Below are positions 44,784-59,850 of a stretch of 64,000 bases of DNA, one piece after another. The DNA comes from Aurantiacibacter rhizosphaerae (GTDB taxonomy: Bacteria > Pseudomonadota > Alphaproteobacteria > Sphingomonadales > Sphingomonadaceae): the NCBI RefSeq assembly GCF_009807005.1, contig NZ_WUBR01000003.1, positions 186,001-250,000 on the forward strand, written 5' to 3'. Both the position numbers and the translations under genes were made by a program. The notes below the pieces were generated by a model. It had not been told where the DNA came from and made no database searches. It saw nothing but the letters and a program-made list of their open reading frames with translations. Numbering within the stretch: position 1 is the stretch's first letter; every line of letters starts with the position of its first letter.

Positions 44784-46100
44784 TTATTTCCCGCCATCCT
44801 GCCCTTTTGCGGCAAACAGGAACACCGCCAGCCCCAGCGTTGTGATGGCGGCGGTAACGAAGAATGTCGCGCCGTAGCCGAAGCTTTCGATAACCTGGCC
44901 CGATGCCCCGGCCATGGTCGATCTTCCGAAATTCGGGATCGCCATCATAACAGCGAACTGGCTGGCCGCGACCGCCGGATTGCTCAGCATCATTCCCCAC
45001 GCGATCATCAGGATGGTTATCAGGGTGACGGTGACGGTCTGCACGATGAAGATCGTCATGAAAATCGTATTGCCTTCCCATGCGGAAAAGGTTGTGCCAG
45101 CTATCAATGCGGCCACGATCAGGACGAGGCTGGCGACAACGGTCAGTCGAACGATGCCGCACCATTTGATGAGCAGGCCCGTAAACACGATCCCCAACAA
45201 CCCGGCGCCTAGCATGACCGCCGAACCAAAGGTGCTGTAACCGTCGCTGGACCAGCCCAGCTCCTTCACCGCCAGGGTGGGGCCGACGCTTTCGATCTGT
45301 ACCCATGTTACCATCATCAGGAAGAAAGCGAGGAGATAGACGACGATCCGCACCTTCGCCAGCGAGCCGACAACCGCCTTGAGCATCGGCCACCACCCGT
45401 CCTGCCGCAAGGCCTCACATTCGGCGGAGGGGGATCCGCTGGTCCACGGCATCAGCCGTTCGCCCGGACGCTCTCGAAACAGGCCTACGATGATGGACGG
45501 CACTGCCACAAGGATCGCAAAGGCGAATGCAGTCGCCGCCATGCCGCCGCTCAGGACAAGCTGCCCACCGATATAGCCGGTCACCGCGAAGCCGACGCCT
45601 TGCGAGCCCATCATGCATCCGTTGATCGCACCGCGTTCCTCTATTGGCACGAGATCGATGGTCATGCCGTCTACGGCAACATCGTTGAAGATCGCGCAAA
45701 CGTTCAGCGCGAAACAGAAGCTGCCAAGCAGGGCAATTTCGCTGGCATCGGGGGCCGATATGGCAAGCATGATCAGCACGGCGACCATGGCGGCCTGTGC
45801 GAGCAGGATCCATGCCCGCCGCCGTCCCATCGGGCGATAGGCATAGCGGTCCATGAACAGGCCGGCCAAGGGCTTCATCGCCCAGGGCAGCGTTGCGAAG
45901 CCGATAAAAGCGCCCACTTCCAGCGCGCTGGCTCCGTTGGCCGCAAACCATGGCGGCAGGACGATCATGGACAGGCCGACCGGCACGCCCTGCATGAAAT
46001 ACAGGATCATCGTGGCGGCAAAGCGAAGTGGCTTGTTTTCGACCATCGATGGCCATGCGCGCTGCGCCCGGCCATCGATGGTCATTGCTGCGTTTTTCAT
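44784..46100 (-). CDS. MFS transporter
   Basis: This 438-residue 12-helix transporter has the loop motif GLFMDRYAYRPMGRRRAW and a central cytoplasmic loop rich in charge. The text YFMQGVPVGLSMIVLPPWFA near helix 1 resembles the AmpG/PAT group of MFS proteins, which move muropeptides or acyl compounds, but this is only a resemblance. ATG at 46100 follows GGGGGGAC; a second in-frame ATG is five codons in. It ends three bases after tRNA-Lys on the opposite strand. The start region carries three 12-bp direct repeats upstream. Confidence 0.85.
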   Translation of the reverse strand: MKNAAMTIDGRAQRAWPSMVENKPLRFAATMILYFMQGVPVGLSMIVLPPWFAANGASALEVGAFIGFATLPWAMKPLAGLFMDRYAYRPMGRRRAWILLAQAAMVAVLIMLAISAPDASEIALLGSFCFALNVCAIFNDVAVDGMTIDLVPIEERGAINGCMMGSQGVGFAVTGYIGGQLVLSGGMAATAFAFAILVAVPSIIVGLFRERPGERLMPWTSGSPSAECEALRQDGWWPMLKAVVGSLAKVRIVVYLLAFFLMMVTWVQIESVGPTLAVKELGWSSDGYSTFGSAVMLGAGLLGIVFTGLLIKWCGIVRLTVVASLVLIVAALIAGTTFSAWEGNTIFMTIFIVQTVTVTLITILMIAWGMMLSNPAVAASQFAVMMAIPNFGRSTMAGASGQVIESFGYGATFFVTAAITTLGLAVFLFAAKGQDGGK

Positions 46101-46881: not shown

Positions 46882-48507
46882 TCAACCTGCCTGGCTGTCC
46901 CATATGGCGCCCAGCGCGCTAACCATGTCATCCCCGGAAGGATCGCTGCCGAACCAGTAGATCATCCGGTCGACCAAAAACCGGAAGTCCGCCATCGTGT
47001 AATCGGGGGCAATGAGCCTGATCCGGTCGATCACGCGCCTCGCCTCGTCATCCCGTCCGGCAAAGGCCAGCGCGGCGGCCAGCGTCACCAGATTGAGGCT
47101 GTAATCGGGATTGCGCTCGTCACATTCACGATAGGCCGCGATAGCCGCATCGACATTGCCCAACCGTATTTCGCAATGCCCGCGATAATGCGCCCACACG
47201 GCATAGCGCGGATGATGCGGCGCGCGCGCCTCTGCCGTTTCGATCATCGCGAGACCTTCGCGATTGCCATGCAGCCAGCAGTGCTGCCAGCCAAGCACGG
47301 CCAGCGTGTGAGGGTTGTTGGGATCGCGCTCCACCGCGCGGGTAAGATTGCGCACCGCAAGACGAGCATTGCCCATCATGGTGGCGGTGATCCCCGCCGC
47401 GGCCAGCACATCAGGATCGTCCGGCGCGAAGGATATGGCGGTTTCCACGTGCCGCTTCGCCTGGGCAAAGGCCTGCGAAGGATTATCGTCGAACTTGCTG
47501 GTGACGTTCTGCGTCAATTGCACGGCCAGCGCCGCGTGCACGGCGGCATCATCGGGCTGCAAGGTCACGGCACGGTCCAGCAGCTGGACAATCTCCTGCG
47601 CCGTGGACCGGTTGTAGTTAAGCCGCAGGTTCTCCGCCCTTTGCACCAGTTGATAGGCGTTGAGCTGGAACTGGCGGCGGCTCTGCAATTCCCGGGCGTG
47701 GGACACGACCAGTGCACTTGCCGTAGATGTCGATACGTCGAGGACGATCTTGTCCTGCACTTCGAAAAATTGATCGAGCGTGCTTTCAATCCGCTCCGCC
47801 CAGACCTGCGTATTGCCCACCCCGTCCATCAGTGCCGTGCGCAGCTGAAATTCATCGCCGCGCCGTTGCAGCGATCCACTCACCACATAGCGCACCCCAA
47901 GGCTGGCGGCGATGTCGGGCAGGGATGCGCTGCCCTCGTCAATCGCGAGCGCCGAACTGTAGGCGGCCACGTGCAGCCGCGGCACGCGTGACAGCAGCAT
48001 GGTGAGATCGCGGGTGATACCGTCGGCCAGAAAGGCATCTTCCGGCATGCCCGACATGTTCTGAAACGGCAGCACCCCTACCGAGAAATCGCCAGAGCAT
48101 TGATAGCGGGGAAGCGCTTCACTGTCCTCGGCCCGGCGCTCTTGCCCAGCCTCGGATCGCCGGGTTTCGGCCACCAGCGCATAGCCGCGTTTCCAGATTG
48201 TGGTGATGTAGGGCGCGTTCGTTTTATCGGCATTGAAGATTGCGCGCAGTATCGAGATCGCGCGGGTCAGACTTTCATCCGCACCCGGATTGAAGAACCA
48301 GACATGTTCGATCAGCTGATCACGGGTCACGACCTTGCCTGCATGCTCGATCAGGAACATCAGGACGTCCATGATCAGCGGCTCGATCTGATGCGGCTTA
48401 CCATCGCGCCAAATACAATTGCGATCGGGGTCGACGTTGAACGCGCCGACCATCCAATCCCCGCCCCCGCGAGCGGAATCAGTGTATTTACTGACTTCGG
48501 CTTTCAA
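46882..48507 (-). CDS. Winged-helix transcriptional regulator with TolB-like and TPR domains
   Basis: This regulator of about 541 residues has an OmpR/CadC-type winged helix at the N-terminus (KVVTRDQLIEHVWFFNPGADESLTRAISILRAIF and TIWKRGYALV). A TolB-N-like domain follows (VGVLPFQNMSGMPEDAFLADGITRDLTMLLSRVPRLHV, GVRYVVSGSLQRRGDEFQ), then TPR repeats over about the last 250 residues. No transmembrane helix is seen, unlike CadC. The start is uncertain: TTG 48507 has a GGGGGAG site, while TTG 48564 and ATG 48453 are alternatives. It is the likely regulator of the adjacent secreted protein and MFS genes on the same strand. Confidence 0.85.
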   Translation of the reverse strand: MKAEVSKYTDSARGGGDWMVGAFNVDPDRNCIWRDGKPHQIEPLIMDVLMFLIEHAGKVVTRDQLIEHVWFFNPGADESLTRAISILRAIFNADKTNAPYITTIWKRGYALVAETRRSEAGQERRAEDSEALPRYQCSGDFSVGVLPFQNMSGMPEDAFLADGITRDLTMLLSRVPRLHVAAYSSALAIDEGSASLPDIAASLGVRYVVSGSLQRRGDEFQLRTALMDGVGNTQVWAERIESTLDQFFEVQDKIVLDVSTSTASALVVSHARELQSRRQFQLNAYQLVQRAENLRLNYNRSTAQEIVQLLDRAVTLQPDDAAVHAALAVQLTQNVTSKFDDNPSQAFAQAKRHVETAISFAPDDPDVLAAAGITATMMGNARLAVRNLTRAVERDPNNPHTLAVLGWQHCWLHGNREGLAMIETAEARAPHHPRYAVWAHYRGHCEIRLGNVDAAIAAYRECDERNPDYSLNLVTLAAALAFAGRDDEARRVIDRIRLIAPDYTMADFRFLVDRMIYWFGSDPSGDDMVSALGAIWDSQAG

Positions 48508-48680
48508 AGAATGTCTCTCCCCCGATACATTCACTGATGATTGAAAAAGCGCCCCATGCTGCAAATTTTATTGCCGGGACAGGTTCGTCCTGCTCCGCGA
48601 CATTTCCATCCGGTGTTTTGCGTAAAGCTTTCTTCCACAAATGCCGCCCTTGCGCAATCAGGGCGGGCTGACGCCGGCGG

Positions 48681-49283
48681 TCAGCTTCGTTGTGCGGCAA
48701 GCGCTTCCATCACGCGGGCCAGAGCCTGTCCGGCAGGGTCTTCTTCCTGCAGCAGGGCGTAGCTACCCGTAAGCCACAGCGCGCAGTGGCCATGCACCGT
48801 GGCAATCAGGGACCGCACGAGGCGGCGGGTGGAGGCGTCTTCGGGCTGCCCCAGCCAGCGCGTAACCTCTGCATCGACGATACCGGTCAGCTCTTCGCGC
48901 GCTGTCTCATCCGCCTTGGCAACCGCGTTGGTGCGGTCAATACGGTGGTCGTAAATCGCCATCCACGCGTTGCGGTTGCTGTCGGCAAAGGCGAAATAGG
49001 CGCGCACCAGGGCCGCGATCCGCGCGTCGCCATCGCCGGTTTCATCGGCAAGGGCGCTTTGCAGACAGGCGCTCCATTTGCGGAAGGTGTGGCTGTTGAT
49101 CGCGATCAGATAGCCATCCAGCCCGCCGAACACATTATAGATGGTTCCCACGGAATAGCCTGCGCGCCGCGCGGCCTCCCTTGCAGAGAATTTGGCGAAG
49201 CCGCGTTCGGCCATCACTTCATGCCCGCGCGAAACCAGCAGGTCGTGAAGCTCATCAGGAGTGTGATCGGATCGCCGTCCCAT
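48681..49283 (-). CDS. TetR-family repressor of the biosynthetic operon
   Basis: This 200-residue protein has an N-terminal TetR helix-turn-helix (FSAREAARRAGYSVGTIYNVFGGLDGYLIAIN) and an all-helical C-terminal domain of the TetR_C_33/WHG type (WMAIYDHRID, then GHCALWLTGSYALL). It is divergent from the KAS III gene across about 100 bases holding two matching palindromes (49303-49343), which are the expected binding sites. The ligand is unknown, perhaps an acyl or product molecule of the operon. Confidence 0.93.
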   Translation of the reverse strand: MGRRSDHTPDELHDLLVSRGHEVMAERGFAKFSAREAARRAGYSVGTIYNVFGGLDGYLIAINSHTFRKWSACLQSALADETGDGDARIAALVRAYFAFADSNRNAWMAIYDHRIDRTNAVAKADETAREELTGIVDAEVTRWLGQPEDASTRRLVRSLIATVHGHCALWLTGSYALLQEEDPAGQALARVMEALAAQRS

Positions 49284-49302
49284 ACACGTCTGTTAACCGA
49301 CA

Positions 49303-49343
49303 AATTGAACGTTGTCTAATTTTTAATTGAACATCGTTTAATT
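49303..49343. promoter_or_regulatory. Two tandem 19-bp palindromic operators
   Basis: AATTGAACGTTGTCTAATT (49303-49321) and AATTGAACATCGTTTAATT (49325-49343) share the symmetric pattern AATT-N2-AC-N3-GT-N2-AATT. Their centres are 22 bp apart, about two helical turns. They sit between the divergent TetR gene and the operon start, as expected for autoregulated TetR control. Confidence 0.85.
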
Positions 49344-49384
49344 GTATGGGACTGTGTATTCGATTCGATAAGGGAAGGACTGTG

Positions 49385-50380
49385 GTGTTCAGCAATTTCG
49401 CAATCTCTGGCTGGGGCGCGTATCGTCCGCGCGGAGTGGTCACATCGGCGCAGCTTGATCTTCGGCATGGCCATGTTGCAGGCTGGACCGAAGGCGAATT
49501 CGGCATCGCATCGCGCCACGTTGCCGCCGCTGACGAGACGACATCGATGATGGCCGCAAGCGCCTGCCGCGCGGCGCTGGACTGCGCGGGGTGGGGCGAT
49601 GCACTGCCCGATGTGATCATCGGTGGCTGCGGCGTCATGGAACAGCCGATCCCCTCCACCGCGGTGCTGGTGCAGGATCAGCTTGGGCTTGGCCGTTCGG
49701 GCGTGCCCTGTTTCGACGTCAACCAGACCTGCCTGTCCTTCGTTGCTGCGCTGGATGTGGCGGCAACCGGAATCTCGGCGGGTCGCTGGCAGCGTGCGCT
49801 GGTGTTCGCCAGCGATATCGCTTCGGCAGGGCTTGATCCGGCGGTTCCGAAAACCCGTTCCATCTTCGGAGACGGGGCAGCGGCTGTTGCGATTGAGGCC
49901 GCAACGGATGGCGCGCGCGGCATGTTGAGCTGCGCCACTGTCACTCACGGCGCGCATCACTCGCTTGCCCAATTGCGCGCAGGCGGCACAAGGTTGCGCG
50001 TCAGCGAAGGCTATGATGCGCTGGTCGCCGGATCGCGCTTCGAGATGGACGCCTTTGGAATATTCAAGGCGGCGGCCAAGGCGCTGCCCGGTGTGATAGA
50101 CCGCGCACTGGCGGATGCCGGGGTGACGCGGGATGAGCTGGCCTGCGTCATCTGCCATCAGGCAAGCGCGCCGGGGGTGGAGCATGTGCAGCGCCTGTTT
50201 GCGCCGATTGGAGACCGGGTGATCAACCTGTTCTCTACCCACGGCAATCAGATCGCTGCCTCCATCCCCACCGTGCTGGCCCATGCGCTGGAAAGCGGCA
50301 AAGCCGGGCCGGGTGACGCGATCCTGCTGCTGGGCACGGCGGCGGGCATCAGCGCCACGGCCGTGGTGATCCGCCTGTGA
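49385..50380 (+). CDS. 3-oxoacyl-ACP synthase III-like (KAS III/OleA-like) condensing enzyme
   Basis: This thiolase-fold condensing enzyme has about 331 residues. The full Cys-His-Asn triad is visible: Cys near 116 (FDVNQTCLSFVAAL), His (CVICHQASAPGVEH) and Asn (FSTHGNQIAASIP). GDGAAAVAIE is also typical. GTG at 49385 is favoured by AGGGAAGGA five bases upstream; an ATG at 49346 would sit inside the operator. It begins a six-gene overlapping operon with a reductase and an adenylating enzyme, so it probably condenses acyl units for a dedicated product rather than for primary fatty-acid synthesis. Confidence 0.9.
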   Translation: MFSNFAISGWGAYRPRGVVTSAQLDLRHGHVAGWTEGEFGIASRHVAAADETTSMMAASACRAALDCAGWGDALPDVIIGGCGVMEQPIPSTAVLVQDQLGLGRSGVPCFDVNQTCLSFVAALDVAATGISAGRWQRALVFASDIASAGLDPAVPKTRSIFGDGAAAVAIEAATDGARGMLSCATVTHGAHHSLAQLRAGGTRLRVSEGYDALVAGSRFEMDAFGIFKAAAKALPGVIDRALADAGVTRDELACVICHQASAPGVEHVQRLFAPIGDRVINLFSTHGNQIAASIPTVLAHALESGKAGPGDAILLLGTAAGISATAVVIRL

Positions 50381-51387
50381 CGGCGCGGCGCATTCTCATC
50401 ACCGGGGCGACCGGCGGCTTGGGCCATGCGCTGGTGCAAGAGGCCATGGGCCGCGGCGCCGTGGTGCGCGCTACCGGACGCCAGACAGGTGTGGGCGCGG
50501 GGCTGTCCGCGCTTGGCGCCCAATTCGTGCGATGCGATCTAACTGCGCCTGATGCGGATCTTGCTGCGCTGCTATCCGGCTGTGACAGCGTGATCCACGC
50601 CGCTGCGCTGTCTGCCAGCTGGGGGCGGGAGGCGGACTTCATCGCCGCCAATATCACGGCCACGCGGCGGCTGCTGGATGCGGCCCGCGTGGCGAGGGTG
50701 ACGCGCTTCGTCTTCGTATCCTCCCCCAGCATATTCGCACAACTGGCCGATCAGGTTCAGATCGGCGAATATCATCCGCCTGCCGCCCGCCCGCTGAATG
50801 CCTATGCCCGCACGAAGCTTGCTGCAGAACGCATGGTGCTGGCCGCTTGTGACGAAAGGATGGCGACCTGCGCGATCCGCCCCCGCGCGCTTGTGGGGCA
50901 GGGCGACAGGGTGATCCTTCCGCGTCTTGCACAGCTTGCCAGCCGCAATCGCATGCCCTTGCCGCGCGGCGGGGCTGCGCTGATCGAGCTGACTGACCTG
51001 CGCGATGCGGCCTGGGCGATCTGCGAGGCAGAGGCGCGCACGCCTGCGCTTGGCGGACGGGCACTCAACATCTCCGGCGGCAAGCCGATTGCGGTGCGCG
51101 ATCTGGCGCTGCGTCTGGCCGCCGCACTGGGGAAAAGTCCGCGCCTCGTTCCCGTTCCGCTGCTGCTGGCGCGGCAATTGGCGCATGTTGCGCAGACTGT
51201 CGCCAGTATCACGGGCGCGCAGCAGGAGCCTGTGCTGACCCGCTATACCCTGGCGACGCTCGCCTATTCACAAACCTTCGATCTTGCGCCCGCGCAGCGG
51301 CGGCTGGGTTATCAGCCGCAGCATGATGCGGTTGAAACCCTGCTTGGCGAAGCGCGGCGGATGGCGTCAGTGGGAGGCGCGGCATGA
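50377..51387 (+). CDS. NAD(P)-dependent epimerase/3beta-HSD-like reductase
   Basis: This 336-residue extended short-chain dehydrogenase has the cofactor loop ITGATGGLGHALVQEA, HAAALSASWG, the Ser in VSSPSIF and the catalytic YARTK (Tyr-x3-Lys). It resembles 3beta-hydroxysteroid dehydrogenase/OleD-type reductases, which reduce beta-keto groups. The GTG start overlaps the KAS III stop by four bases. Reduction of the condensation product is the natural role. Confidence 0.9.
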   Translation: MTARRILITGATGGLGHALVQEAMGRGAVVRATGRQTGVGAGLSALGAQFVRCDLTAPDADLAALLSGCDSVIHAAALSASWGREADFIAANITATRRLLDAARVARVTRFVFVSSPSIFAQLADQVQIGEYHPPAARPLNAYARTKLAAERMVLAACDERMATCAIRPRALVGQGDRVILPRLAQLASRNRMPLPRGGAALIELTDLRDAAWAICEAEARTPALGGRALNISGGKPIAVRDLALRLAAALGKSPRLVPVPLLLARQLAHVAQTVASITGAQQEPVLTRYTLATLAYSQTFDLAPAQRRLGYQPQHDAVETLLGEARRMASVGGAA

Positions 51388-52241
51388 TCCGTGTCGGCCT
51401 GCAATGGATTGCGCGCGGCGCGTGCACTCACCCAGAGGTGATGACAATCAGCGGCGGCAGTCTGTGCGCCGTGGAATTTCCGGCCATGGTCGGCGTGATC
51501 CGCCATCCCACCCGCGGGATGTTCCTGTTCGATACGGGCTATGACCCCGCCTTCATCGCCGCGACCCGGCCATTTCCTGAACGGCTTTACCGCTGGACCA
51601 CGCCCGTGCGCATCGGTGAGGATGCAGAATGGCAGACCTGGCTTGCTGCACATGACATTGCTGAGAGCGAGATCGCGGGCACAATCATCTCGCACTTCCA
51701 CGGCGATCACGTGGCAGGGCTGGGGAACCTTGCGCATGTGCCTGTGTACTGCGCGCGCGCGGGTCTTTCCCAGCTGCGCAGTTCGGGACGGTTTGCAAGG
51801 GTGAGGCGCGGGCTGCTGGCGGCGCTGGTGCCGCCTGAGGTGGATACGCAGGCGCGCTTTTTCGAAGATGCGCCCGCGTGCCAGCTTCCATCCGCCTTTG
51901 CGCCATTCAGGGAAGCGCGCGACATTCTTGGCGATGGCTCTCTGCTGGCGGTGGAGCTGCCCGGCCATTGCGCGGGCCATTGGGGCCTCGCCCTGATTAC
52001 AGAGGCGGGGCAGCCTGTGCTGCTGGCGGCGGACGCGGTATGGTCTGGCCAGTCAATCACGCAGCATCGGCCCCCGCCGCGCATCACCACCGCGCTGCTG
52101 GGCGATACCCGACGCTATCGCCAGACTCTCGACCTTCTCAGCCGCGCGTCGAAGAATAATGGAGAGCTGGCAATCCTGCCCTCTCATTGTGCGGCCAGCG
52201 CAAGAAAATTCAGCGCAACCGGTGACAATGACGCAGGTTAG
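51384..52241 (+). CDS. MBL-fold metallo-hydrolase
   Basis: This 285-residue metallo-beta-lactamase-fold hydrolase has the zinc motif SHFHGDHVAG (HxHxDH), a downstream ligand Asp in LLAADAVWSG and His in ELPGHCAGHWGL, plus a C-terminal His (LPSHC). This set is typical of lactonases and thioesterase-like MBL proteins such as AiiA relatives. ATGA overlap joins it to the reductase gene. It may release or hydrolyse a thioester or lactone intermediate. Confidence 0.88.
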   Translation: MIRVGLQWIARGACTHPEVMTISGGSLCAVEFPAMVGVIRHPTRGMFLFDTGYDPAFIAATRPFPERLYRWTTPVRIGEDAEWQTWLAAHDIAESEIAGTIISHFHGDHVAGLGNLAHVPVYCARAGLSQLRSSGRFARVRRGLLAALVPPEVDTQARFFEDAPACQLPSAFAPFREARDILGDGSLLAVELPGHCAGHWGLALITEAGQPVLLAADAVWSGQSITQHRPPPRITTALLGDTRRYRQTLDLLSRASKNNGELAILPSHCAASARKFSATGDNDAG

Positions 52242-53466
52242 CCGGATCATCGCAGCATGGTGGCGCACGCGCCGCGCGATGCGTCGGTCTCCGGCGGCGC
52301 TGGCTGCGGGCCGCGCAAGGGCGTGGGCGGCGCTGCAACCTGCGCTGGCCCGCACACCTGCGTTGGCGAGTTTTACAGGTGGCGAGATAGAGGACTTTCC
52401 CATCACCGACATCGCCGATGTGCGCCGTGACTATGGCCTGTGGAACAGCCTTGGCCTGTCAGATGCCACACTGCGCGCCATGGCCAATGCTGCCGAGGAC
52501 GGGGCGGCTGCTTCGCCGACCGCTCTTTCGGCAGGGTGGTCAACCGGTAGCAGCGGCGGGGCGCGCGGGCTTTTCGTGGCAAGCCCGGCAGAGCGCGCCG
52601 AATATATCGGCCAGAGCCTTGCCCGTCTGCTTCCCGCGCGCGCGATGTTGCGCCGCCAGCGAATTGCCCTTTACCTGAGGGCGGGCAACGCGCTTTACAG
52701 CGATGCTGGGCGCGGGCGGTTTGCCTTTCGTCACCTGCCGTTGGGCGCGCCGCTGGCAGAGACGATTGACGAACTTCAGGCCTTTGCGTCCACCATCCTG
52801 ATCGCGCCGCCTCACCGCCTTATCGCGCTTGCCGAGGCAGGGGTGCGCCTGCCAGCCTTGCGCCACCTCTTCTGCGGCAGCGAGCCGATCAGCGCGGCGG
52901 AGCGCGCCTTTATTGCAGACCGGCTGGGACATGCCCCGCGCGCGATCTATCAGGCGACCGAGGGTTTTCTTGGCGCGGAATGCGCGCAGGGGCGGCTGCA
53001 TCTCAACGATCATGTGCTGGCGATTGAGCTGGAGCCGGTGGCAGGCACGCCGGGAGTTCGCCCGATCATCACGGATTTGAAGCGCACCAGTCAGCCCGTC
53101 GTGCGCCTGCGTGGAGACGATTATCTGGAGCTTGATCCGCGTGTCTGCCCCTGCGGCTTTGCGGGCAGAGTAATCGCGCCTGTTGAGGGGCGGATCGCCG
53201 ATATCTGGCCGGGCGAGGCAGGACCAGTCACCCCGCCGCAGATCGTCGCTGCGGTGGAGCGCCTGCTGGGCGCAGGGCACCGCTGGCAGGCGGTGGGCCG
53301 GACGGCGAAAGCAGTGCTGCGGGTTGCGCCGGAATGCCCGCCCGCGCTGGCAAGTGATGCCGCGGATGCGCTGTCTGCCTGCGTGGCAAGGCCTGTCACT
53401 GTGCAACAGGATTTGCCTGAATGGAGCGGACCGAAGCGGCGCAAGGTGATGTGGGCCGATGCATAG
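52228..53466 (+). CDS. PaaK/F390 synthetase-like adenylate-forming enzyme
   Basis: This protein of about 412 residues is of the phenylacetate-CoA ligase/coenzyme F390 synthetase group of acid-activating enzymes. It has the ATP loop AGWSTGSSGGARG, the acyl/AMP site YQATEGFLGAEC, the ribose-binding RLRGDDYLEL and the CPCGF-GRV zinc-like turn with EGRIADIW. It is shorter than CoA ligases and may only adenylate. ATG 52228 overlaps the MBL gene by 14 bases; a longer open frame lies inside that gene. In the operon it probably activates a carboxylate for the next enzyme, an ATP-grasp ligase. Confidence 0.85.
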   Translation: MTQVSRIIAAWWRTRRAMRRSPAALAAGRARAWAALQPALARTPALASFTGGEIEDFPITDIADVRRDYGLWNSLGLSDATLRAMANAAEDGAAASPTALSAGWSTGSSGGARGLFVASPAERAEYIGQSLARLLPARAMLRRQRIALYLRAGNALYSDAGRGRFAFRHLPLGAPLAETIDELQAFASTILIAPPHRLIALAEAGVRLPALRHLFCGSEPISAAERAFIADRLGHAPRAIYQATEGFLGAECAQGRLHLNDHVLAIELEPVAGTPGVRPIITDLKRTSQPVVRLRGDDYLELDPRVCPCGFAGRVIAPVEGRIADIWPGEAGPVTPPQIVAAVERLLGAGHRWQAVGRTAKAVLRVAPECPPALASDAADALSACVARPVTVQQDLPEWSGPKRRKVMWADA

Positions 53467-54619
53467 GCGCGTTCTCATCACCGGCGCACGCGCAGCCGCC
53501 GCGCTGGATCTGGCGCGCGACTTCAATGCTGCGGGTTGGCAGGTGCACTTGGCAGACAGTCGGCCGGTGCGCATGGCCCGCTGGTCATGCCTTGCGTTGC
53601 ATCATCACGAATACCCGCCACCAATAGAACAGCGTGAGGCCTTTCGCGCCAGCATTCTTGCACTGATGGAAAGAGAAGTAATCGACCTTGTCGTGCCCAC
53701 CTGTGAGGAGGTGTTCCATCTGGCCGCCCCTTCGCTCCACGCGCAGCTTGGCGCGCGGTTGTTCGCAACTGATCTGGCGAGGCTGCGACAGCTGCATGAC
53801 AAGTTCGCCTTCGCCAGTGCCTGCCGGGAATGGGGCCTGCCAATTCCCGAAAGTCACCTGCTGACACACGCTACCGATGTCGCGCGTTTTGCCCCTGCGG
53901 CGCAGGACTGGGTGTTCAAGCCATGCTTCACCCGCTTCGGCAATGCCGCGCTGATCGGCCCCACCTCGCAGATGCTTGCGCAAATTGCACCCACGCCGGA
54001 TGTGCCGTGGCTGGCGCAGCGGCGCGTATCGGGCGATGAAGCGTGTTTCTATGCCGTCGCGCATCGCGGAAAACTCGTGGCCTTTGCCGCCTACAAATCC
54101 GGCTGGCGACTGGATGGCGGGGCAAGCTATGCCTTTGAACCGCTTTGCGGTTCTCGCCAGCAGGCCTTGCGCGATATTGCCGAGCGGCTGGCGCTGCGCG
54201 CGGATATTCACGGCCAATTCGCCTGCGATGCTATTTTCGATGCCGCGGGGCAGCCGTTCCTGATCGAGTGCAATCCCCGCGCCACCAGCGGGGTTCACCT
54301 GCTGGCCGGCGATGGCGCGCTGGCCCGCGCTATCGGTGAAGGTGTCAGCTGCCCTGCGCAAAACTGCTGCCCGGCCTATCTTGGCCCGGCAATGCTGGCC
54401 TATGGCCTGCCCCATGCGCTGCGTCGGGCGCGGTTGGGGGAGTGGTTCAGGCTGCTTCGCAATGGACGCGATGCGATTGGCCGCGCGGGCGACCGCTTGC
54501 CAATGCTTGGTGCGGTGGCAGATGCCGCCGGGTTCTTCCGTGATGGCCGCAAGCATTCTATCTCCACCACCGCGGCCACCACCCGCGACATCGCCTGGAA
54601 CGGAGAGGACCTGGACTGA
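53459..54619 (+). CDS. ATP-grasp ligase-like protein
   Basis: This 386-residue protein has an N-terminal Rossmann-like domain (RVLITGARAAAALDLARDF), the ATP-grasp entry DKFAFASACREWGLPIPES, a lid lysine in DWVFKPCFTRFGN and the metal-binding IECNPRATSGVHLL. These resemble carbamoyl-phosphate-synthase-like ATP-grasp enzymes in natural-product clusters, which join a carboxylate to an amine or thiol via acyl phosphate. Eight bases overlap the adenylating gene and its stop overlaps the Rieske start (TGATG). Confidence 0.88.
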   Translation: MHRRVLITGARAAAALDLARDFNAAGWQVHLADSRPVRMARWSCLALHHHEYPPPIEQREAFRASILALMEREVIDLVVPTCEEVFHLAAPSLHAQLGARLFATDLARLRQLHDKFAFASACREWGLPIPESHLLTHATDVARFAPAAQDWVFKPCFTRFGNAALIGPTSQMLAQIAPTPDVPWLAQRRVSGDEACFYAVAHRGKLVAFAAYKSGWRLDGGASYAFEPLCGSRQQALRDIAERLALRADIHGQFACDAIFDAAGQPFLIECNPRATSGVHLLAGDGALARAIGEGVSCPAQNCCPAYLGPAMLAYGLPHALRRARLGEWFRLLRNGRDAIGRAGDRLPMLGAVADAAGFFRDGRKHSISTTAATTRDIAWNGEDLD

Positions 54620-55632
54620 TGAGCTTTCCTTCCGCAGTGCGCGATGCCTGGCACATGGTTGCCCTGTCCCGCGACGTGGGTGCAGGCACAGTGCGCAAGG
54701 TGACACTGTGCGACACGCCCATCGCGCTGTTCCGCAATGATCGTGACCTCGGCGCCCTGATCGACCGCTGCCCCCATCGCAATTACCCACTATCGGAGGG
54801 GCGCGTTCATCGCGGCGCGCTGGAATGCCCGTACCACGGCTGGCGCTTTGCCCCGGACGGCGCGTGTGCCGCAGTGCCCGGCTGCGCGGTTGAAACGGCG
54901 GATGACACGCGCCTCAGGGCCGATGCGCTGCGAGTGGCGGAGAGGCATGGTGCGATCTTCGTGACACTGTCCGACACCGCGCCTGCAGAACCGCCTCTGC
55001 CGCCCGATTTCGGCAACCCCGATCTCGATCATTTCTGGTGGCAGCAGGGCACCTGGGAAGGCCGCGCGTTCGATGCCATCGAGAACGTGATGGACCCGTT
55101 CCACACCAACCATCTGCACCACGGCTTCATCCGCCGCCGGGACAGGCGATTGCCGGTTGATCTTGTGGTGACGAGCCACGGCGACGGGATCGACATGGCG
55201 ATAGAGCAGACCCAGCCCGACCTCGGCCTGATGTCGCGCTTCCTTGAACGGGACCGGCAGCGCAGCGTTTCCCGATATTACCCGCCCACCACGGTGCAGG
55301 CCCGCTGGGAAGGGCAGACGCGGCTGACCCTGTGCGTGACGGCGATCTTCACGCCTGCAACGCAGACCACCTTCACGCCCTTTGCGCGCTTTTCCACGCC
55401 CAGGGGGCTTGCTCCCGGCTGGCTGAAACAGGCCGCGATCCGCATGTTTCTTGCCCCCGTGGTGGCGCAGGATCGCCGGGCGCTGGCGCTGCAGCACGGC
55501 GTGATTACGCGCTTTGGAAATCCGCAATTCACCTCCGGCCCCGGCGATATTCTCGGCAATCGCCTGCACCGATTGTGGCGGGGGGAGGTGCTGGAGCGCG
55601 GTCAGGATGCCAAGGTGCGCGCGCATCTTTAG
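54619..55632 (+). CDS. Rieske non-haem iron oxygenase
   Basis: This 337-residue oxygenase component has the Rieske [2Fe-2S] motif CPHRNYPLSEG...CPYHGWRF (C-x-H and C-x2-H) and the mononuclear iron site ENVMDPFHTNHLHHG. The length and single-component style fit vanillate-demethylase or steroid-type oxygenases rather than two-subunit dioxygenases. No ferredoxin or reductase gene is in the operon, so electrons must come from elsewhere. It probably tailors the product of the five upstream genes by hydroxylation, desaturation or demethylation. Confidence 0.9.
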   Translation: MSFPSAVRDAWHMVALSRDVGAGTVRKVTLCDTPIALFRNDRDLGALIDRCPHRNYPLSEGRVHRGALECPYHGWRFAPDGACAAVPGCAVETADDTRLRADALRVAERHGAIFVTLSDTAPAEPPLPPDFGNPDLDHFWWQQGTWEGRAFDAIENVMDPFHTNHLHHGFIRRRDRRLPVDLVVTSHGDGIDMAIEQTQPDLGLMSRFLERDRQRSVSRYYPPTTVQARWEGQTRLTLCVTAIFTPATQTTFTPFARFSTPRGLAPGWLKQAAIRMFLAPVVAQDRRALALQHGVITRFGNPQFTSGPGDILGNRLHRLWRGEVLERGQDAKVRAHL

Positions 55633-55884
55633 CGCATTGTTCTGATCCAGCGGCCTTACATGGGCGCTCCGACAAAAATCCGCTCTTTTCACGCGCGGCG
55701 TCTGCTTCGTTCGTTGAAAACACTTTATAATCTTTTGCGCGGTAATACTGCATTTGCATCAAGGGCTTGTGCCTGCGAAGCAATTCGCTAGCACCCCGGT
55801 GCAATTGATTTCGCCTGTTGCTGGAAATTTTGGAGCGCTCGTCCCTTTTACAGGGCAACAACGGTGCCGCTCTCTGGAGAAGAC
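55633..55884 (+). promoter_or_regulatory. AT-rich upstream region of the Rsb module
   Basis: This 252-base gap between the Rieske gene and rsbR is AT-rich for the window and contains a perfect TATAAT (55726-55731). No good -35 lies at the right distance and no EcfG-type GGAAC/CGTT pair was found. It is a likely promoter region. Confidence 0.4.
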
Positions 55885-56775
55885 ATGACCGAGAAAGTCC
55901 TGGAAACCACACTCGAAGTTCTGAAGGAGGACGCCGAAGGCCTCCTGATGGAATGGATCGATCAGGCGGACGAAGACGGTGCCAAGCGCAGCGATCTTTT
56001 CTCCGAAAGAGAAGAGCGCGATCAGGCTGCCAGCATGCTGCGCGCATTCCGGCTGGGCGTGCGGGACACCTCTCGCGAGGGCGATTTTGACCTGCGTGAC
56101 GAACACTGGGCCGATCTGCGTGGCATCCTTTCGGAAATCACGCATGAGCGGGTGGAGCGCGGCGTTCTTCCGGGCGAGATGGCCGCGCTTGTCCTTGCGC
56201 TGAAAACCCCGCTGTTCGGACGTTTGACGGATAAGCTGGTAGGCCAGCCGGATCGGTTGATCGAAGAAGTGCTGATCGTGTCTAAAGCGATTGATGCCTT
56301 CGCCCTCTACACCAACGAAGTGTTCATCGCAGAGCGTGAGCAGATTATCGAGCGCCAGCGTGACGAGATGCTGGAGCTTTCCACCCCGGTGGTGGAACTG
56401 TGGGACAAGGTTCTCACCCTGCCGCTGATCGGCACGCTGGACAGCATGCGCGCGCAGGAGGTGATGGAAAGCCTGCTGCAAGCCATCGTGGAGCGGCAGG
56501 CCGAGGTTGTAATCGTGGATATCACCGGCGTTAAGACGGTTGATACGCAAGTTGCGCAGCACCTGCTGCGTACGGCAGCCGCGGTGCGCCTGATGGGCGC
56601 GCGCTGCATCATCAGCGGTATCAGCCCCAAGATCGCGCAGACCATGGTGGAACTGGGCGTTGATGTTGGTGAAGTGCGCACGCGCTCTTCCATCAAGAAC
56701 GCGCTGACCGATGCGCTGACGTCTGTCGGCGTGGCGATCCGGCCTATCGAGCGTAACCAGCGGTCCGGCGCATGA
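55885..56775 (+). CDS. rsbR: RsbR-like stressosome scaffold protein
   Basis: This protein of about 296 residues has a variable N-terminal sensor domain (about 1-150, helical, globin-like in other RsbR proteins) and a C-terminal STAS domain (VELWDKVLTLPLIGTLDSMRA to VGVAIRP). The two conserved phospho-threonine sites are recognisable as GTLD and VKTVDTQ. The ATG at 55885 follows CTGGAGAAG; a GTG 21 bases upstream is also in frame. It begins a five-gene overlapping module, and the sensory input is unknown. Confidence 0.88.
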   Translation: MTEKVLETTLEVLKEDAEGLLMEWIDQADEDGAKRSDLFSEREERDQAASMLRAFRLGVRDTSREGDFDLRDEHWADLRGILSEITHERVERGVLPGEMAALVLALKTPLFGRLTDKLVGQPDRLIEEVLIVSKAIDAFALYTNEVFIAEREQIIERQRDEMLELSTPVVELWDKVLTLPLIGTLDSMRAQEVMESLLQAIVERQAEVVIVDITGVKTVDTQVAQHLLRTAAAVRLMGARCIISGISPKIAQTMVELGVDVGEVRTRSSIKNALTDALTSVGVAIRPIERNQRSGA

Positions 56776-57152
56776 ACGCGGCCGCAATCTATGCGGTCGA
56801 AGGCGTTCTCCTTGTCTCGATAACATCCGATATCACGGACAGTGACATTATCGAGCTGCAGGAACACCTTTCCAATCGCATCGCCGAAAGCGAGACGCGC
56901 GGCGTGGTGGTGGATATCTCCGCGCTGGAAATCGTCGATACCTTCGTTGGCCGCATCCTTGCGCAGCTGACGGCGATTGCGCGCCTGCTGGATGCGGAAA
57001 CCTATGTGGTGGGAATGCGGCCTGCCGTGGCCATGACTCTTGTCGAGCTGGGCATGTACCTGCCTGACAATCACACGGCCCTTACGCTGGATCACGCGCT
57101 GGAAAAGATTCGCAGCGCAAGGTCGGCCAATGGCATTTCCCGGCGGGCGTAA
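56772..57152 (+). CDS. rsbS: RsbS-like STAS-domain antagonist
   Basis: This 126-residue single STAS-domain protein would co-assemble with RsbR and hold RsbT until phosphorylated. The segment VVVDISALEIVDTFVGRILAQL contains the phosphoacceptor position; it reads IVDTF, so Thr replaces the Ser seen in Bacillus RsbS. ATGA overlap with rsbR. Its 3' end overlaps rsbT by 23 bases. Confidence 0.9.
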   Translation: MNAAAIYAVEGVLLVSITSDITDSDIIELQEHLSNRIAESETRGVVVDISALEIVDTFVGRILAQLTAIARLLDAETYVVGMRPAVAMTLVELGMYLPDNHTALTLDHALEKIRSARSANGISRRA

Positions 57153-57549
57153 AATCGCGACCATAGAATTGCGAACGGACCGGGATGTTTCCCGCGCACG
57201 TTCGCGTGTCAGCGATATCATGAAATCCAAGGGCAGCCGCGATCTGATGATCACCCGGTTCGTTACCGCCGTCAGCGAGATTGCGCGCAACGCCATCATC
57301 CATGGCCAAGGCGGGCGCATGTCCGTTTTCGAATTGCCCGATGCACGCCTGATCGGCGTGGAATGCGTGGACGAGGGGCAGGGCATCGACGACATCGAAC
57401 TGGCGCTGGGCGATGGTTATTCCACCCGCAAGAACAGCCTGGGGCGCGGATTGGGGGGAGCCAAACGGCTCGCCAAGACTTTCACTATCACAAGCGCGCC
57501 CGGCAAGGGGACTGTCGTGCGCATGATAGGAATGTGCACCACGCGATGA
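57130..57549 (+). CDS. rsbT: RsbT-like serine/threonine kinase
   Basis: This GHKL-ATPase kinase of about 139 residues has the N-box EIARNAIIHGQGG, G1 box DEGQGIDDIE and G2 box GRGLGGAKRL, all intact. RsbT phosphorylates RsbR and RsbS, is freed from the stressosome, and switches on a downstream partner. ATG at 57130 starts within rsbS and gives a standard-length protein. Confidence 0.92.
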   Translation: MAFPGGRKIATIELRTDRDVSRARSRVSDIMKSKGSRDLMITRFVTAVSEIARNAIIHGQGGRMSVFELPDARLIGVECVDEGQGIDDIELALGDGYSTRKNSLGRGLGGAKRLAKTFTITSAPGKGTVVRMIGMCTTR

Positions 57550-58547
57550 TCGGCTGGCTGAAAATTGAAGAATCGAGCGCGGTTGCAGAAGCCCGCCGTC
57601 GTGCGCGGCGCACGGCCAGTGCCCTTGGGTTCAATTCGACCAAGGTAGAGCATGTCGCTATCGTCGCTTCCGAGATTGCACAGAACGTCCTTCGCCATGG
57701 GGGCGGCGGCCTGTTGCTGGTGCAAGTGTTTGGCGCGCCTTCGCTGGAGCGGTTGCACCTGCTGGGCGTAGACACTGGCCCCGGCATCACGCGCGTCGAT
57801 CGCATGCTGAAAGATGGCGAGACGACGAAGCGATCCATGGGCACTGGCCTTGGCGCGATCAAGCGATTGAGCGACCGCATTGATATAGACACTTCCCCGG
57901 CGGGCACGGTTGTCGCTGCCGAATTCTTAAGAACACCCATGCCGCCGAAAAGCGCGGCTGACCACGCGGGGCTGCGCATTGCCTATCCCGGCGAACGGCG
58001 CTGCGGCGATGCCATTGCCGTAAGATCGGGCGATGGCGTGTGCCTGTATCTGCTATGCGATGGGCTGGGCCACGGCCCGAATGCGGCCACTGCGGCAGAT
58101 GCAGCGAAGCGGGCCTTCATGGCCGCTAAGGGCAGCGATCCATCGCGTTTGCTGATGGAAGTGGGCGAAGGGCTGGCCGGAACGCGCGGCGCGGTGGCCG
58201 CAGTGGTGGCGGTGAACCACACCGAAAAGCGCATGGATTACGCCGCTGTCGGAAATATCAGCACACTCGTCTGGCAGGATCGCAAGGTGCAGCGGCTGTC
58301 CGTGCGTGACGGCCTTTTGGGCGGGCGGGTCACCACCCCGCATTGCGAGACTATCACCCTGTCCGATGATGCCGTGATCGTGATGCACTCCGATGGATTG
58401 GCCACCATGCGCGGCCTTGCGGAAAGGGTAGCCCTGCTGGACCGCAGCGCACCTGTGATCGCCGCCCGATTGTTGAGCGATACCGAACGCAAGCGTGACG
58501 ATGCCTCCATCATTGTGGCCCGATTGCATGCTGGAAGGACATTCTAG
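57546..58547 (+). CDS. rsbX: HATPase-PP2C fusion, RsbX-like phosphatase
   Basis: This 333-residue protein has two parts. The N-terminal 130 residues are an RsbT/RsbW-like HATPase (SEIAQNVLRHGGGG, DTGPGI, GTGLGAIKRL). The C-terminal half is a SpoIIE/PP2C phosphatase (GDAIAVRSGDGVCLYLLCDGLGHGPNA, MHSDGL, and a final RDDASIIVARL). RsbX resets the stressosome by dephosphorylating RsbR/RsbS; the fused kinase-like domain is extra relative to Bacillus RsbX. ATGA overlap with rsbT. Confidence 0.9.
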   Translation: MIGWLKIEESSAVAEARRRARRTASALGFNSTKVEHVAIVASEIAQNVLRHGGGGLLLVQVFGAPSLERLHLLGVDTGPGITRVDRMLKDGETTKRSMGTGLGAIKRLSDRIDIDTSPAGTVVAAEFLRTPMPPKSAADHAGLRIAYPGERRCGDAIAVRSGDGVCLYLLCDGLGHGPNAATAADAAKRAFMAAKGSDPSRLLMEVGEGLAGTRGAVAAVVAVNHTEKRMDYAAVGNISTLVWQDRKVQRLSVRDGLLGGRVTTPHCETITLSDDAVIVMHSDGLATMRGLAERVALLDRSAPVIAARLLSDTERKRDDASIIVARLHAGRTF

Positions 58548-58548
58548 G

Positions 58549-59739
58549 ATGGAAATCGTCAGCGTAAGGATCGGGGTAGAGGCGGATATTCCGCGGGTCC
58601 GGCAGGTAAGCGATGTGATCGCGCGCAGCTTCTCTTTTGAAAATTTTGCCCGAACCCGCATGATCACCGCCATCCTGGAAATCACCCGCAACGCCTTGCA
58701 GCATGGCAGGGGCGGCAGGGCGTATTTCCAGGCAGAGCGCAAGGCCGAACATACCTGGCTGAAAGTGGTGGTGGAAGACCAGGGAGACGGGCTTCCGGAC
58801 GACAGCGTCTTTGTAAAAAGCAGGCGGCCTTTCCGGGCTAACCTTTCCCAATCGCGCGGCATGGGGCTGGGCCTCACAGGCGTGCAAAGCCTGGCCGACA
58901 GCTTTGATCTTAGATCCTCCAAGGAAGGCACTACGGCCGAGCTGGCATTCCAGACATCGGTGCCTGCCAGAGAGCTGGAAAGCCGGGTTGAGGATGTACG
59001 AGAGAAACTGGGCGACCTGAGCGCGACCGATCCCGTTGCAGAACTTTCGCGCCAGAACCGTGAACTGGCCGAGGCCATGGCGGAACGCGAACTGTTGATT
59101 GACGAGGTGCATCATCGCACGGGCAACAATCTGTCGCTCATCATCAGCTTCATCCAGCTGAGCAAGCGCAATGCCAAGGAAGAGGAAACGCGGGAGGCCA
59201 TGGCCCAGCTTGAGGCCCGCGTTCATTCCGTCGCCAAGGTCCATCAGGAATTGCAGCGCGCCCATCTGGGCGAACGGATTTCGCTGTTGCCCCTGCTGGA
59301 AAATGTCGCGCGCCACGCGCAGGATGCCTTTTCCAACCCGGAATTCGACATCAGCATCTCCGTGTTTGGAGACAATGCCAATGTCGTTGGTGCAGCCGCC
59401 ATTGATCTTGGCCTGATCGTGAACGAACTGGTCACCAATTCCTACAAGCATGCCTTTGCAGGGCGGCAGCAGGGCAAGGTGCAGATCGCGTTCGAGCGCG
59501 GCCCCGATGATGAATATTGGGAGCTTTCCGTGCAGGACGACGGTGGCGGCATTCCAGAGGACATGAAGCCGGAACGATCGGATTCGCTGGGCTGGCGTAT
59601 GGTCCGGGCGATGGCCACGCGCCATGCTGGCAAGATTACCACAAGCGGTGAAAAGGGCTTCCGCACTTCCATCAAGTTCCCGCCGGAATTCGCCAGCGCG
59701 GGCAGGGATACTTCGGGCAGCGCCTCCTCTGCAGAGTAA
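58549..59739 (+). CDS. RsbT-like HATPase fused to HRXXN (HWE/HisKA_2) histidine kinase
   Basis: This 396-residue protein opens with a third RsbT-like HATPase (LEITRNALQHGRGG, DQGDGLP, GMGLGLTGVQSL). A short coiled linker leads to a HisKA_2 histidine-kinase core with the phospho-acceptor in DEVHHRTGNNLSLIISFIQL and its own C-terminal HATPase (ELVTNSYKHAF, DDGGGIP, SLGWRMVRAM). HRXXN kinases in alphaproteobacteria phosphorylate PhyR-type regulators of the general stress response. It is the likely output of the module, though no PhyR or EcfG gene is in the window. The ATG at 58549 follows the rsbX stop by one base. Confidence 0.9.
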   Translation: MEIVSVRIGVEADIPRVRQVSDVIARSFSFENFARTRMITAILEITRNALQHGRGGRAYFQAERKAEHTWLKVVVEDQGDGLPDDSVFVKSRRPFRANLSQSRGMGLGLTGVQSLADSFDLRSSKEGTTAELAFQTSVPARELESRVEDVREKLGDLSATDPVAELSRQNRELAEAMAERELLIDEVHHRTGNNLSLIISFIQLSKRNAKEEETREAMAQLEARVHSVAKVHQELQRAHLGERISLLPLLENVARHAQDAFSNPEFDISISVFGDNANVVGAAAIDLGLIVNELVTNSYKHAFAGRQQGKVQIAFERGPDDEYWELSVQDDGGGIPEDMKPERSDSLGWRMVRAMATRHAGKITTSGEKGFRTSIKFPPEFASAGRDTSGSASSAE

Positions 59740-59850
59740 AGCGCGCGGTCTTGCTCGCCTTTGCGGGCTGATCACCGCCGGAATGTTCCAAAATGGAAGA
59801 CAATTCGGCACCTGCTTGCAATCCCGACTGTTATCGGCATCATTTGGTGC

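Follow-up and report, generated by a model that had tools for sequence, protein, structure and literature searches.

The locus considered here raises the question of what six overlapping enzyme genes make together in Aurantiacibacter rhizosphaerae. The whole stretch of DNA analysed (64,000 nucleotides) is called the window. An earlier note on this stretch had described a row of six genes behind a divergent tetR gene, with overlaps of 4, 4, 14, 8 and 1 bases between neighbours, intact catalytic motifs and an enzyme family assigned to each. The ORF coordinates give the same overlaps, the tetR gene is found where it was placed, and the main catalytic residues are also invariant across the 23–48 aligned sequences of each family. 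Pfam and NCBIfam agree with the family assignments, with the named NCBIfam matches below their cut-offs. As a block conserved in distant bacteria, the six genes probably serve to make one small molecule, not yet described, out of fatty-acid-like units, and their own TetR repressor apparently switches them.

Table 1. Features of the six-gene locus and its upstream region (positions in the window).
Feature	Position	Strand	Remarks
TetR-family regulator (TetR_N + TetR_C_33)	48681..49283	-	Pfam/NCBIfam; divergent from operon
Operator-like imperfect palindrome 1, AATTGAACGTTGTCTAATT	49303..49321	+	Repeat comparison across loci
Operator-like imperfect palindrome 2, AATTGAACATCGTTTAATT	49325..49343	+	22 nt from palindrome 1
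KAS III-type ketosynthase, MxnB/CorB-like	49382..50380	+	Cys117, His259, Asn289, numbered from GTG 49382
Extended SDR, 3beta-HSD/OleD/HpnA type	50377..51387	+	YARTK, Y143/K147
Metallo-beta-lactamase (MBL)-fold hydrolase, lactonase branch	51384..52241	+	HFHGDH
PaaK/F390-synthetase-like adenylating ligase	52228..53466	+	TEG, CPCG, Lys403
ATP-grasp ligase	53459..54619	+	ECNPR metal site; fold near L-amino-acid ligases, PylC, CPS, PurK
Rieske non-haem iron oxygenase, VanA_C type	54619..55632	+	C51 H53 C70 H73; D159 H162 H167

The start of the KAS gene is uncertain among ATG 49346, GTG 49382 and GTG 49385. The frame is open from ATG 49346, only 2 bases past the second operator-like repeat, and the starts of the homologues align with GTG 49382/49385. 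For the PaaK-like gene, the start implied by the earlier note is used; the longest frame begins at 52159.

Searching with the PaaK-like protein or TIGR02304 led to 33 other genomes, of which 31 have the KAS III, SDR, MBL and ligase genes in this order. Two Halomonas loci (L008 and L009) have the same order of genes and the same five overlaps (4/4/14/8/1; start codons chosen by homology to the window proteins), and the arrangement is therefore far beyond chance. Conservation of all six genes together, the lack of which would have refuted the proposal of the earlier note, holds within the family and beyond it in Halomonas; as a unit, however, it is genes one to four that are conserved. This four-gene core recurs with partners that can be exchanged, a new observation, and the ATP-grasp and Rieske genes make up one such set among several. 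ATP-grasp and Rieske accompany the core in sphingomonads and Halomonas, GNAT and Rieske in the Rhizobiaceae type, ATP-grasp and GNAT in Paenibacillus, and PAP2/hydroxylase/desaturase in the Enterobacteriaceae type. Two loci from the same genus (L084 and L085) have the TetR gene and the core with no ATP-grasp or Rieske match in the 20 kb examined, so that these two enzymes are dispensable or unlinked there. Among the plasmid records with a match (n = 14; H5, H8, H12 and H14 left out), partial ones are also found (L030, L041), one with only ATP-grasp and GNAT and another with only ligase and ATP-grasp. In the 50-locus survey, L043 was scored as lacking KAS, though its record annotates a KAS and tblastn finds it.

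The enzymes are co-inherited. Their identity matrices correlate with rho of 0.75 (KAS-SDR), 0.77 (KAS-ligase) and 0.84–0.91 (Rieske versus the other five enzymes), part of which is shared descent. The right flank (window 55874-59699) is present in three same-genus genomes that have no ligase match, and the similarity ends near 55874. No left flank was detected in the compared stretches of those genomes, so no precise empty site is given. The set is a real, conserved and horizontally moving operon. (The fragmented cluster L080 was left out of the tree, as was L083, which is the same contig as L010 with an identical ligase; L083 is kept in the residue-invariance counts, whose alignments leave out proteins under the length limits.)

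The region between tetR and the KAS gene should also be noted. Of the 50 loci examined, ten, counting the window, have tetR next to the operon, and all ten have twin 19-bp operator-like repeats between tetR and the KAS gene. No exact match to the repeats exists elsewhere in the genome besides the two copies. These twin repeats, a new observation, are a predicted operator. TetR would repress the operon until a ligand, probably an acyl compound of the pathway, binds. The TetR identity matrix tracks the enzymes less closely (rho 0.27–0.77).

The profile of the cluster KAS proteins scores 4v2p and CorB at 314 and 308 bits, FabH at most at 257 bits, and OleA at about 115–122 bits. With the window sequence alone, the scores are 150 (CorB), 143 (4v2p) and 138 bits (best FabH). 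By both comparisons of sequence, the KAS is nearer to MxnB/CorB than to FabH; 4v2p, for which the PDB entry itself says 'ketosynthase', is taken by us to be MxnB. MxnB and CorB are ketosynthases that join two acyl chains and terminate large polyketide assembly lines, whereas the KAS here belongs to a six-gene operon without PKS genes. Both are its nearest solved relatives by profile and have the VNxSCLSF-type active-site context in common with the cluster KAS proteins, but the catalytic Asn is followed by Cys in MxnB/CorB and by Gln in 42 of 44 cluster KAS proteins. The Cys/His/Asn triad is invariant (44/44).

The earlier note had likened the set to the OleA/OleD/OleC logic; a kinship of the KAS with OleA is not supported. 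The slot of OleA Glu117 is occupied by Ile (22) or Leu (21) in all 43 cluster KAS proteins compared (L083 left out) and by Glu in none, whereas the two OleA sequences compared have EP (Glu then Pro) there. This glutamate is described as essential, with two exceptions among OleAs, in PMC7064751. The slot, together with the profile scores, rules out the KAS as an OleA, and the Ole logic is therefore only an analogy, strongest for the SDR.

The best NCBIfam match of the window SDR is OleD, at 189 bits, below the cut-off of 580; three genomes above the cut-off scored 639–642 bits. The SDR is 31–32% identical to two OleDs, barely below its 34% identity to the cluster SDRs from Paenibacillus and the Enterobacteriaceae type, and the profile of cluster SDRs scores the two OleDs at about 258–264 bits. 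Its catalytic Tyr and Lys are invariant (44/44). OleD-like chemistry is compatible with this comparison. Sterol C4 demethylation by SdmA/SdmB (60 and 55 bits versus cut-offs of 600) and an HpnA identity (121 bits versus 368) were rejected.

The HxHxDH motif and the further metal ligands of the MBL are kept in 47/47 aligned sequences, and the best matches of its profile in the PDB are lactonases, acting on AHLs and pyridoxol lactone. The hydrolase thus falls in the lactonase branch, with a predicted lactonase activity.

For the PaaK-like protein, Pfam gives no match at E 0.001. Its profile matches PaaK, AjiA1 and ClxA among the structures (4r1l, E 4e-24; AjiA1, 7e-17), and Foldseek with a poor model (pLDDT 64) adds NatL2. 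By this sequence and weak-model evidence, the ligase is assigned to the PaaK branch of adenylating enzymes. The TEG motif and the C-terminal Lys are invariant (48/48), while R295 (41/48), D297 (39/48) and the CPCG cysteines (46/48) vary. AjiA1, NatL2 and ClxA belong to the same branch, but the window ligase is only about 16–21% identical to them in structure alignments. According to PMC12519233, ClxA and NatL2 act on amino-hydroxybenzoates, ClxA forms amide and ester, and NatL2 has an ester intermediate. Ladderane clusters also have an F390-synthetase/PaaK-like gene beside fatty-acid genes, but their gene set, as described in PMC2649909, is different, and a match was rejected.

The model of the ATP-grasp ligase (pLDDT 82) is nearest to RizA, the L-amino acid ligase of B. 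licheniformis (3vot) and PylC, and its fold is also near CPS and PurK. In the Rieske enzyme, the residues of the cluster and the iron ligands are invariant (23/23).

The window proteins fall below the cut-offs of three further NCBIfam models, of which the Paenibacillus cluster passes two. With TIGR02304 ('F390 synthetase-related', cut-off 251.9), the window ligase scores 147 bits, while those of Paenibacillus (490) and of the family f199, Enterobacteriaceae by inference (587), pass. With the KAS III model PRK07204 (cut-off 402), the window scores 299, Paenibacillus passes with 425 and the f199 KAS misses with 321. With the ATP-grasp model PRK06849 (cut-off 406), both the window (276) and Paenibacillus (364) miss. 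No paper describing the function of these families was found in the open-access literature. The earlier note knew of no characterised pathway with this gene set, and none was found in the open-access literature searched. The Vfm quorum-sensing cluster of Dickeya was also considered as a candidate.

From these assignments, we infer a pathway of acyl condensation, reduction and ligation whose putative product is an ester, amide or lactone in oxidised form. The KAS III would condense an acyl thioester with another acyl unit or a malonyl unit, giving a beta-keto product, which the SDR would reduce to the beta-hydroxy product in an OleD-like manner. The PaaK-like enzyme would adenylate the carboxylate and hand it on to a nucleophile (O, N or S), giving an ester, amide, lactone or thioester, and the MBL may cleave a (thio)ester or lactone for release, editing or protection. 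These four steps would be the common core. As the local partner set, the ATP-grasp ligase would attach an amine or amino acid by way of an acyl phosphate, and the Rieske enzyme would hydroxylate or O-/N-dealkylate with a reductase encoded elsewhere. The operon itself has no ACP, transporter or Rieske reductase gene, which counts against a biosynthetic pathway. The conserved set and the intact catalytic residues support the dedicated pathway proposed in the earlier note, and on balance we lean slightly toward the operon being a self-contained, TetR-controlled, horizontally mobile biosynthetic set for one small acyl-derived metabolite.

The product of the core may instead be an acyl chain or a head group of unusual kind that remains part of a glycolipid or other membrane lipid and is modified by the partner enzymes. 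The f199 loci point in this direction: PAP2 and FA_hydroxylase genes come after the core in 12 of 17 and a desaturase gene in 11, four have a second SDR, and all three glycosyltransferases tested next to the core belong to GT21. However, the window operon has ATP-grasp and Rieske genes in place of these lipid genes, the f199 clade is distant from the window, and PAP2 and the hydroxylase are also missing from 5 of the 17 loci. Lipid tailoring is accordingly considered unlikely for this locus.

A signal of the PQS type is a poorer candidate. In the PQS pathway, PqsA activates the acid, PqsD is the KAS III for condensation, PqsE the MBL thioesterase and PqsH the oxygenase, and these classes agree with those found here; the KAS profile gives the PQS synthase 3h76, presumably PqsD, 158 bits. 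However, this synthase scores below many FabH proteins, and the window KAS is nearer to MxnB/CorB and FabH. Among the matches of the MBL profile are AHL and pyridoxol lactonases; of the 53 PDB matches listed, none is named PqsE (names only compared), and the reductase and ATP-grasp ligase are extra.

The lactonase-type MBL adjoining a bond-forming ligase could also mean degradation. In an inducible catabolic or detoxifying operon, TetR would sense a foreign lactone or aromatic compound, the MBL, ligase and Rieske enzyme would degrade it, and the KAS would serve as a thiolase. TetR control, the lactonase-branch MBL and the VanA_C-type Rieske enzyme fit. However, the operon has no uptake or beta-oxidation gene, and a KAS III whose C-H-N triad is intact, with two ligases beside it that consume ATP, speaks for bond formation, leaving catabolism with little probability. 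An Ole-type olefin or beta-lactone pathway is very improbable: the order of condensing enzyme, reductase, hydrolase and adenylating ligase and the OleD-like SDR are retained from the analogy drawn earlier, with PaaK-like and MBL proteins in place of OleC and OleB, which are absent from the operon, but the KAS has neither the OleA glutamate nor an OleA-like score, the SDR is far under the OleD cut-off, and ATP-grasp and Rieske are extra.

Extending the biosynthetic reading, we tentatively propose, as a possibility short of an expectation, a natural-product family in Pseudomonadota and Bacillota. Its four-enzyme core (MxnB/CorB-type ketosynthase, OleD-like reductase, lactonase-type MBL and PaaK-like ligase) would make a common acyl building block, and exchangeable cassettes (ATP-grasp + Rieske, GNAT + Rieske, ATP-grasp + GNAT, or lipid desaturase/hydroxylase/glycosyltransferase) would turn the block into signals, conjugates or glycolipids. 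A defined core, its variants and a predicted operator make an annotation curiosity a testable biosynthetic family, whose carriers include Erythrobacter and Halomonas, which are not known as pathogens and where loss of tetR should turn on the product. Families named by NCBI only 'F390 synthetase-related' or 'hypothetical protein' would thereby gain a pathway.

The open reading frames agree with the earlier note on the positions of the six genes and of the tetR gene divergent from them; successive operon genes overlap by 4, 4, 14, 8, and 1 bases. The families first assigned hold in a Pfam search for all products but the PaaK-like protein (table), for which Pfam gave no match at E 0.001; among NCBIfam models it scores best with TIGR02304 ("F390 synthetase-related"), reaching 147 bits against a cut-off of 252. 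The catalytic motifs, described earlier as intact, are so in their main residues: the Cys/His/Asn of the KAS and the Tyr/Lys of the SDR (44/44 aligned sequences each), HxHxDH and the further ligands of the MBL (47/47), TEG and the C-terminal Lys of the ligase (48/48), E-x-N-P-R of the ATP-grasp enzyme (30/30), and the cluster and iron ligands of the Rieske protein (23/23) are invariant. Some ligase positions vary among relatives, since R295 is kept in 41/48, D297 in 39/48, and the CPCG cysteines in 46/48. Judged from the alignments, the function of the operon enzymes is under selection. When pairwise identities are compared as matrices, those of the six enzymes correlate with one another at rho 0.59–0.91 and with that of TetR at 0.27–0.77 (in 8–10 loci), both sets of values being inflated by shared descent.

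The PaaK-like ligase was found in 5/199 genomes of the same family (whole-genome search), 3/385 of the class, 10/398 of the phylum, and 9/40 of the genus, the window's own genome counted each time and the samples overlapping one another. In f199, another family that we infer, with gene content among the grounds, to be Enterobacteriaceae, TIGR02304 matches 16/119 genomes; 6/14 control genomes also matched, 1 over the cut-off. Together, these searches gave 33 distinct genomes besides the window's own, and all 33 neighbourhoods were compared. The core, KAS-SDR-MBL-ligase in order on one strand, is found in 31 of them; because the genomes were picked by the ligase, this count gauges the company of the ligase, not its frequency. 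The exceptions are L079, without a KAS match, and L080 (G987, f199), where the KAS is in two pieces, the ligase is partial, and no MBL matched; the latter is probably a decaying cluster.

A search with the ATP-grasp protein gave six further loci (Erythrobacter donghaensis, E. colymbi, Erythrobacter UBA3075, two Halomonas, and a Geminicoccus MAG), all six with the core in order. Five are new, as UBA3075 (L010) and L083 of the 33 are one and the same contig. Two Erythrobacter are the nearest named operon relatives found, so the host is taken as probably erythrobacter-like. The same protein matched 14 plasmid records, 10 of which were compared. The core is in order in records of Novosphingobium, Rhizobium, Shinella, Roseateles, and Paraburkholderia, and is present in those of Paenibacillus and Pontibacillus with the ATP-grasp gene inserted 3' of the KAS gene. 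Three records depart from this pattern: only ATP-grasp and GNAT are present in Deinococcus L030, only ligase and ATP-grasp in Pseudomonas L041, and L042 has no KAS within 21 kb. On both Pseudomonas megaplasmids (L041 and L042), the ligase lies near an ATP-grasp relative, in L042 with SDR and MBL too, and no KAS matched in 21 kb; these gene sets suggest that the families also have another use.

The complete six-gene set stands on one strand at 16 distinct loci besides the window (table). In two of them the SDR frame is seemingly interrupted by a frame change, the other five genes matching at full length. The partners of the core differ elsewhere. GNAT and Rieske genes accompany it in Rhizobium, Shinella, Roseateles, G623, and G725, with an ATP-grasp gene on the opposite strand; in Geminicoccus and G505 the partners are ATP-grasp and a GNAT gene that is divergent; Paenibacillus has a GNAT besides its ATP-grasp, and Pontibacillus is alike minus an annotated GNAT. 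Paraburkholderia has ATP-grasp, GNAT, and an interrupted Rieske frame, which in strain PREW-6R lies 3' of the GNAT gene and is absent from the listed annotation. In L084 and L085, of the same genus, tetR and the core are present, but neither ATP-grasp nor Rieske matched in 20 kb. Because the partners differ and these two loci lack such matches, the minimal unit is the four-gene core. The six genes stand together at the 16 loci, and ATP-grasp with Rieske is one of several partner sets that are exchanged.

In f199, PAP2 and FA_hydroxylase genes follow the core at 12/17 loci, a desaturase gene at 11/17, and a second SDR gene at 4/17, and the three glycosyltransferases tested are GT21. This version of the cluster strengthens the alternative that the core makes an unusual acyl chain or head group that stays in a membrane lipid or glycolipid. 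Near the f199 cluster, two genomes that belong to one genus have a luxI/luxR-type pair, luxI being Pfam-confirmed in L034.

The two Halomonas loci (L008 and L009) have the window's overlaps, with start codons chosen by homology, at 60–77% protein identity. A tree built from the core proteins (four proteins, 45 taxa) places both, and the gammaproteobacterium-like G618, inside the sphingomonad clade; the node enclosing them with the window has a support of 1.00, the nearest-neighbour node only 0.46. In Novosphingobium THN1 the operon is on a plasmid typed as conjugative, and in a list of the 45 most widespread ORF families, those containing the window all fall within tetR and the operon. These observations point to transfer of the operon as a unit.

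Two 19-bp imperfect palindromes, spaced 22 nt, lie between tetR and the KAS gene. Their common pattern, expected by chance 0.04 times per window at ≤3 mismatches, was found at both sites, and at copy 2 on the other strand too. Across the genome (6 contigs, 3.42 Mb), a looser pattern hit only these two sites when no mismatch was allowed; at ≤2 mismatches it gave 5 matches, versus 2 for the reversed control. A consensus built on the two window copies was compared with 19 upstream regions. Wherever a divergent tetR is adjacent (10 regions), both copies are present, each matching at ≥16/19 positions. Two such sites also occur in L014 and L028, where tetR is not adjacent; the Halomonas-type loci L008, L009, and L031 keep one copy, and L010, L015, L032, and L087 lack both. 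The comparison is good sequence evidence for a dedicated switch at the twin palindromes, which TetR would bind. A simple sigma-70 scan gave no promoter between tetR and the KAS gene. The first protein of the stressosome-like block directly 3' of the operon occurs in 4/40 same-genus genomes, the window's own included; the other three have no match to the operon ligase.

Features of the window and of compared loci
Feature	Position	Assignment or remark
Palindrome copy 1	49303-49321	AATTGAACGTTGTCTAATT
Palindrome copy 2	49325-49343	AATTGAACATCGTTTAATT
tetR product		TetR family (Pfam); divergent from operon
KAS III		ACP_syn_III and its C domain (Pfam)
Extended SDR		Epimerase/3Beta_HSD (Pfam)
MBL		Lactamase_B (Pfam)
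ATP-grasp enzyme		ATP-grasp_3 (Pfam)
Rieske oxygenase		Rieske with VanA_C (Pfam)
Far side of tetR	44784-46100	MFS transporter, AmpG/RhtX-like, below cut-offs
Far side of tetR	46882-48564	CadC-like regulator with TPR repeats, below cut-off
Stressosome-like block	55864-59739	STAS/RsbR-like, RsbS-like, RsbT-like, phosphatase-like, histidine-kinase-like ORFs, named by reading sequence
PAP2-type membrane phosphatase gene	59761-60871	by reading; seemingly split by frame change
PAP2-type gene, N-terminal part	59761-60747	frame
PAP2-type gene, part with SMH motif	60506-60871	frame
Interrupted SDR	L007:5013-5916	Erythrobacter colymbi
Interrupted SDR	L031:7482-8491	G618
Interrupted Rieske	L027:12270-13352	Paraburkholderia PREW-6R
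luxI/luxR-type pair	L034:3245-4613	f199
luxI/luxR-type pair	L035:15101-16463	f199
Loci with complete set		L006-L010, L012-L015, L028, L031, L032, L081, L082, L086, L087

The KAS profile scored 314 bits with PDB 4v2p, which we take to be MxnB, 308 with CorB, at most 257 with FabH, 158 with the PQS synthase 3h76, and 106–112 with PqsC. MxnB and CorB are ketosynthases connecting two polyketide chains, and the operon KAS has the active-cysteine setting common to them. With the window KAS alone as the query, the lead is small (150/143 bits for CorB/4v2p versus 138 for FabH). The proposal that the KAS III follows OleA was not upheld: OleA structures scored about 115–122 bits, and the glutamate described as essential to OleA in PMC7064751 is Ile/Leu in 43/43 operon sequences. 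The likeness of the reductase to the Ole pathway was borne out, the window SDR being close to OleD (31–32% identity, against 34% to the SDRs of Enterobacteriaceae-type/Paenibacillus clusters).

The ligase profile matches PaaK (4r1l), AjiA1, and ClxA, and its weak structure model (pLDDT 64) matches this group too, plus NatL2; ClxA forms amides and esters, and NatL2 has an ester intermediate, according to PMC12519233. The MBL profile matches AHL lactonases, GcL, and pyridoxolactonase. The predicted ATP-grasp structure (pLDDT 82) is nearest to RizA, the B. licheniformis L-amino acid ligase 3vot, and PylC, with CPS, PurK, and Ddl also among its matches. The TM-scores are about 0.5–0.6, so that we are sure of the class of the enzyme but not of its substrate.

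Because of these relatives, found by profile, sequence, and structure-model comparison, we commit to reading the operon as a pathway in which condensation, reduction, and adenylation and ligation would take place, and amine coupling and oxidation would come after a lactonase-type release or editing step; we infer the step order and the acyl chain. No paper on the cluster was found in a search of mainly open-access literature, and passages in papers that use the term "F390 synthetase" did not deal with this operon. NCBI family models already exist near three operon members. As far as our searches show, the parts are catalogued and the pathway is not. We rate the enzyme combination and its minimal core as new within acyl-condensing biosynthetic operons.
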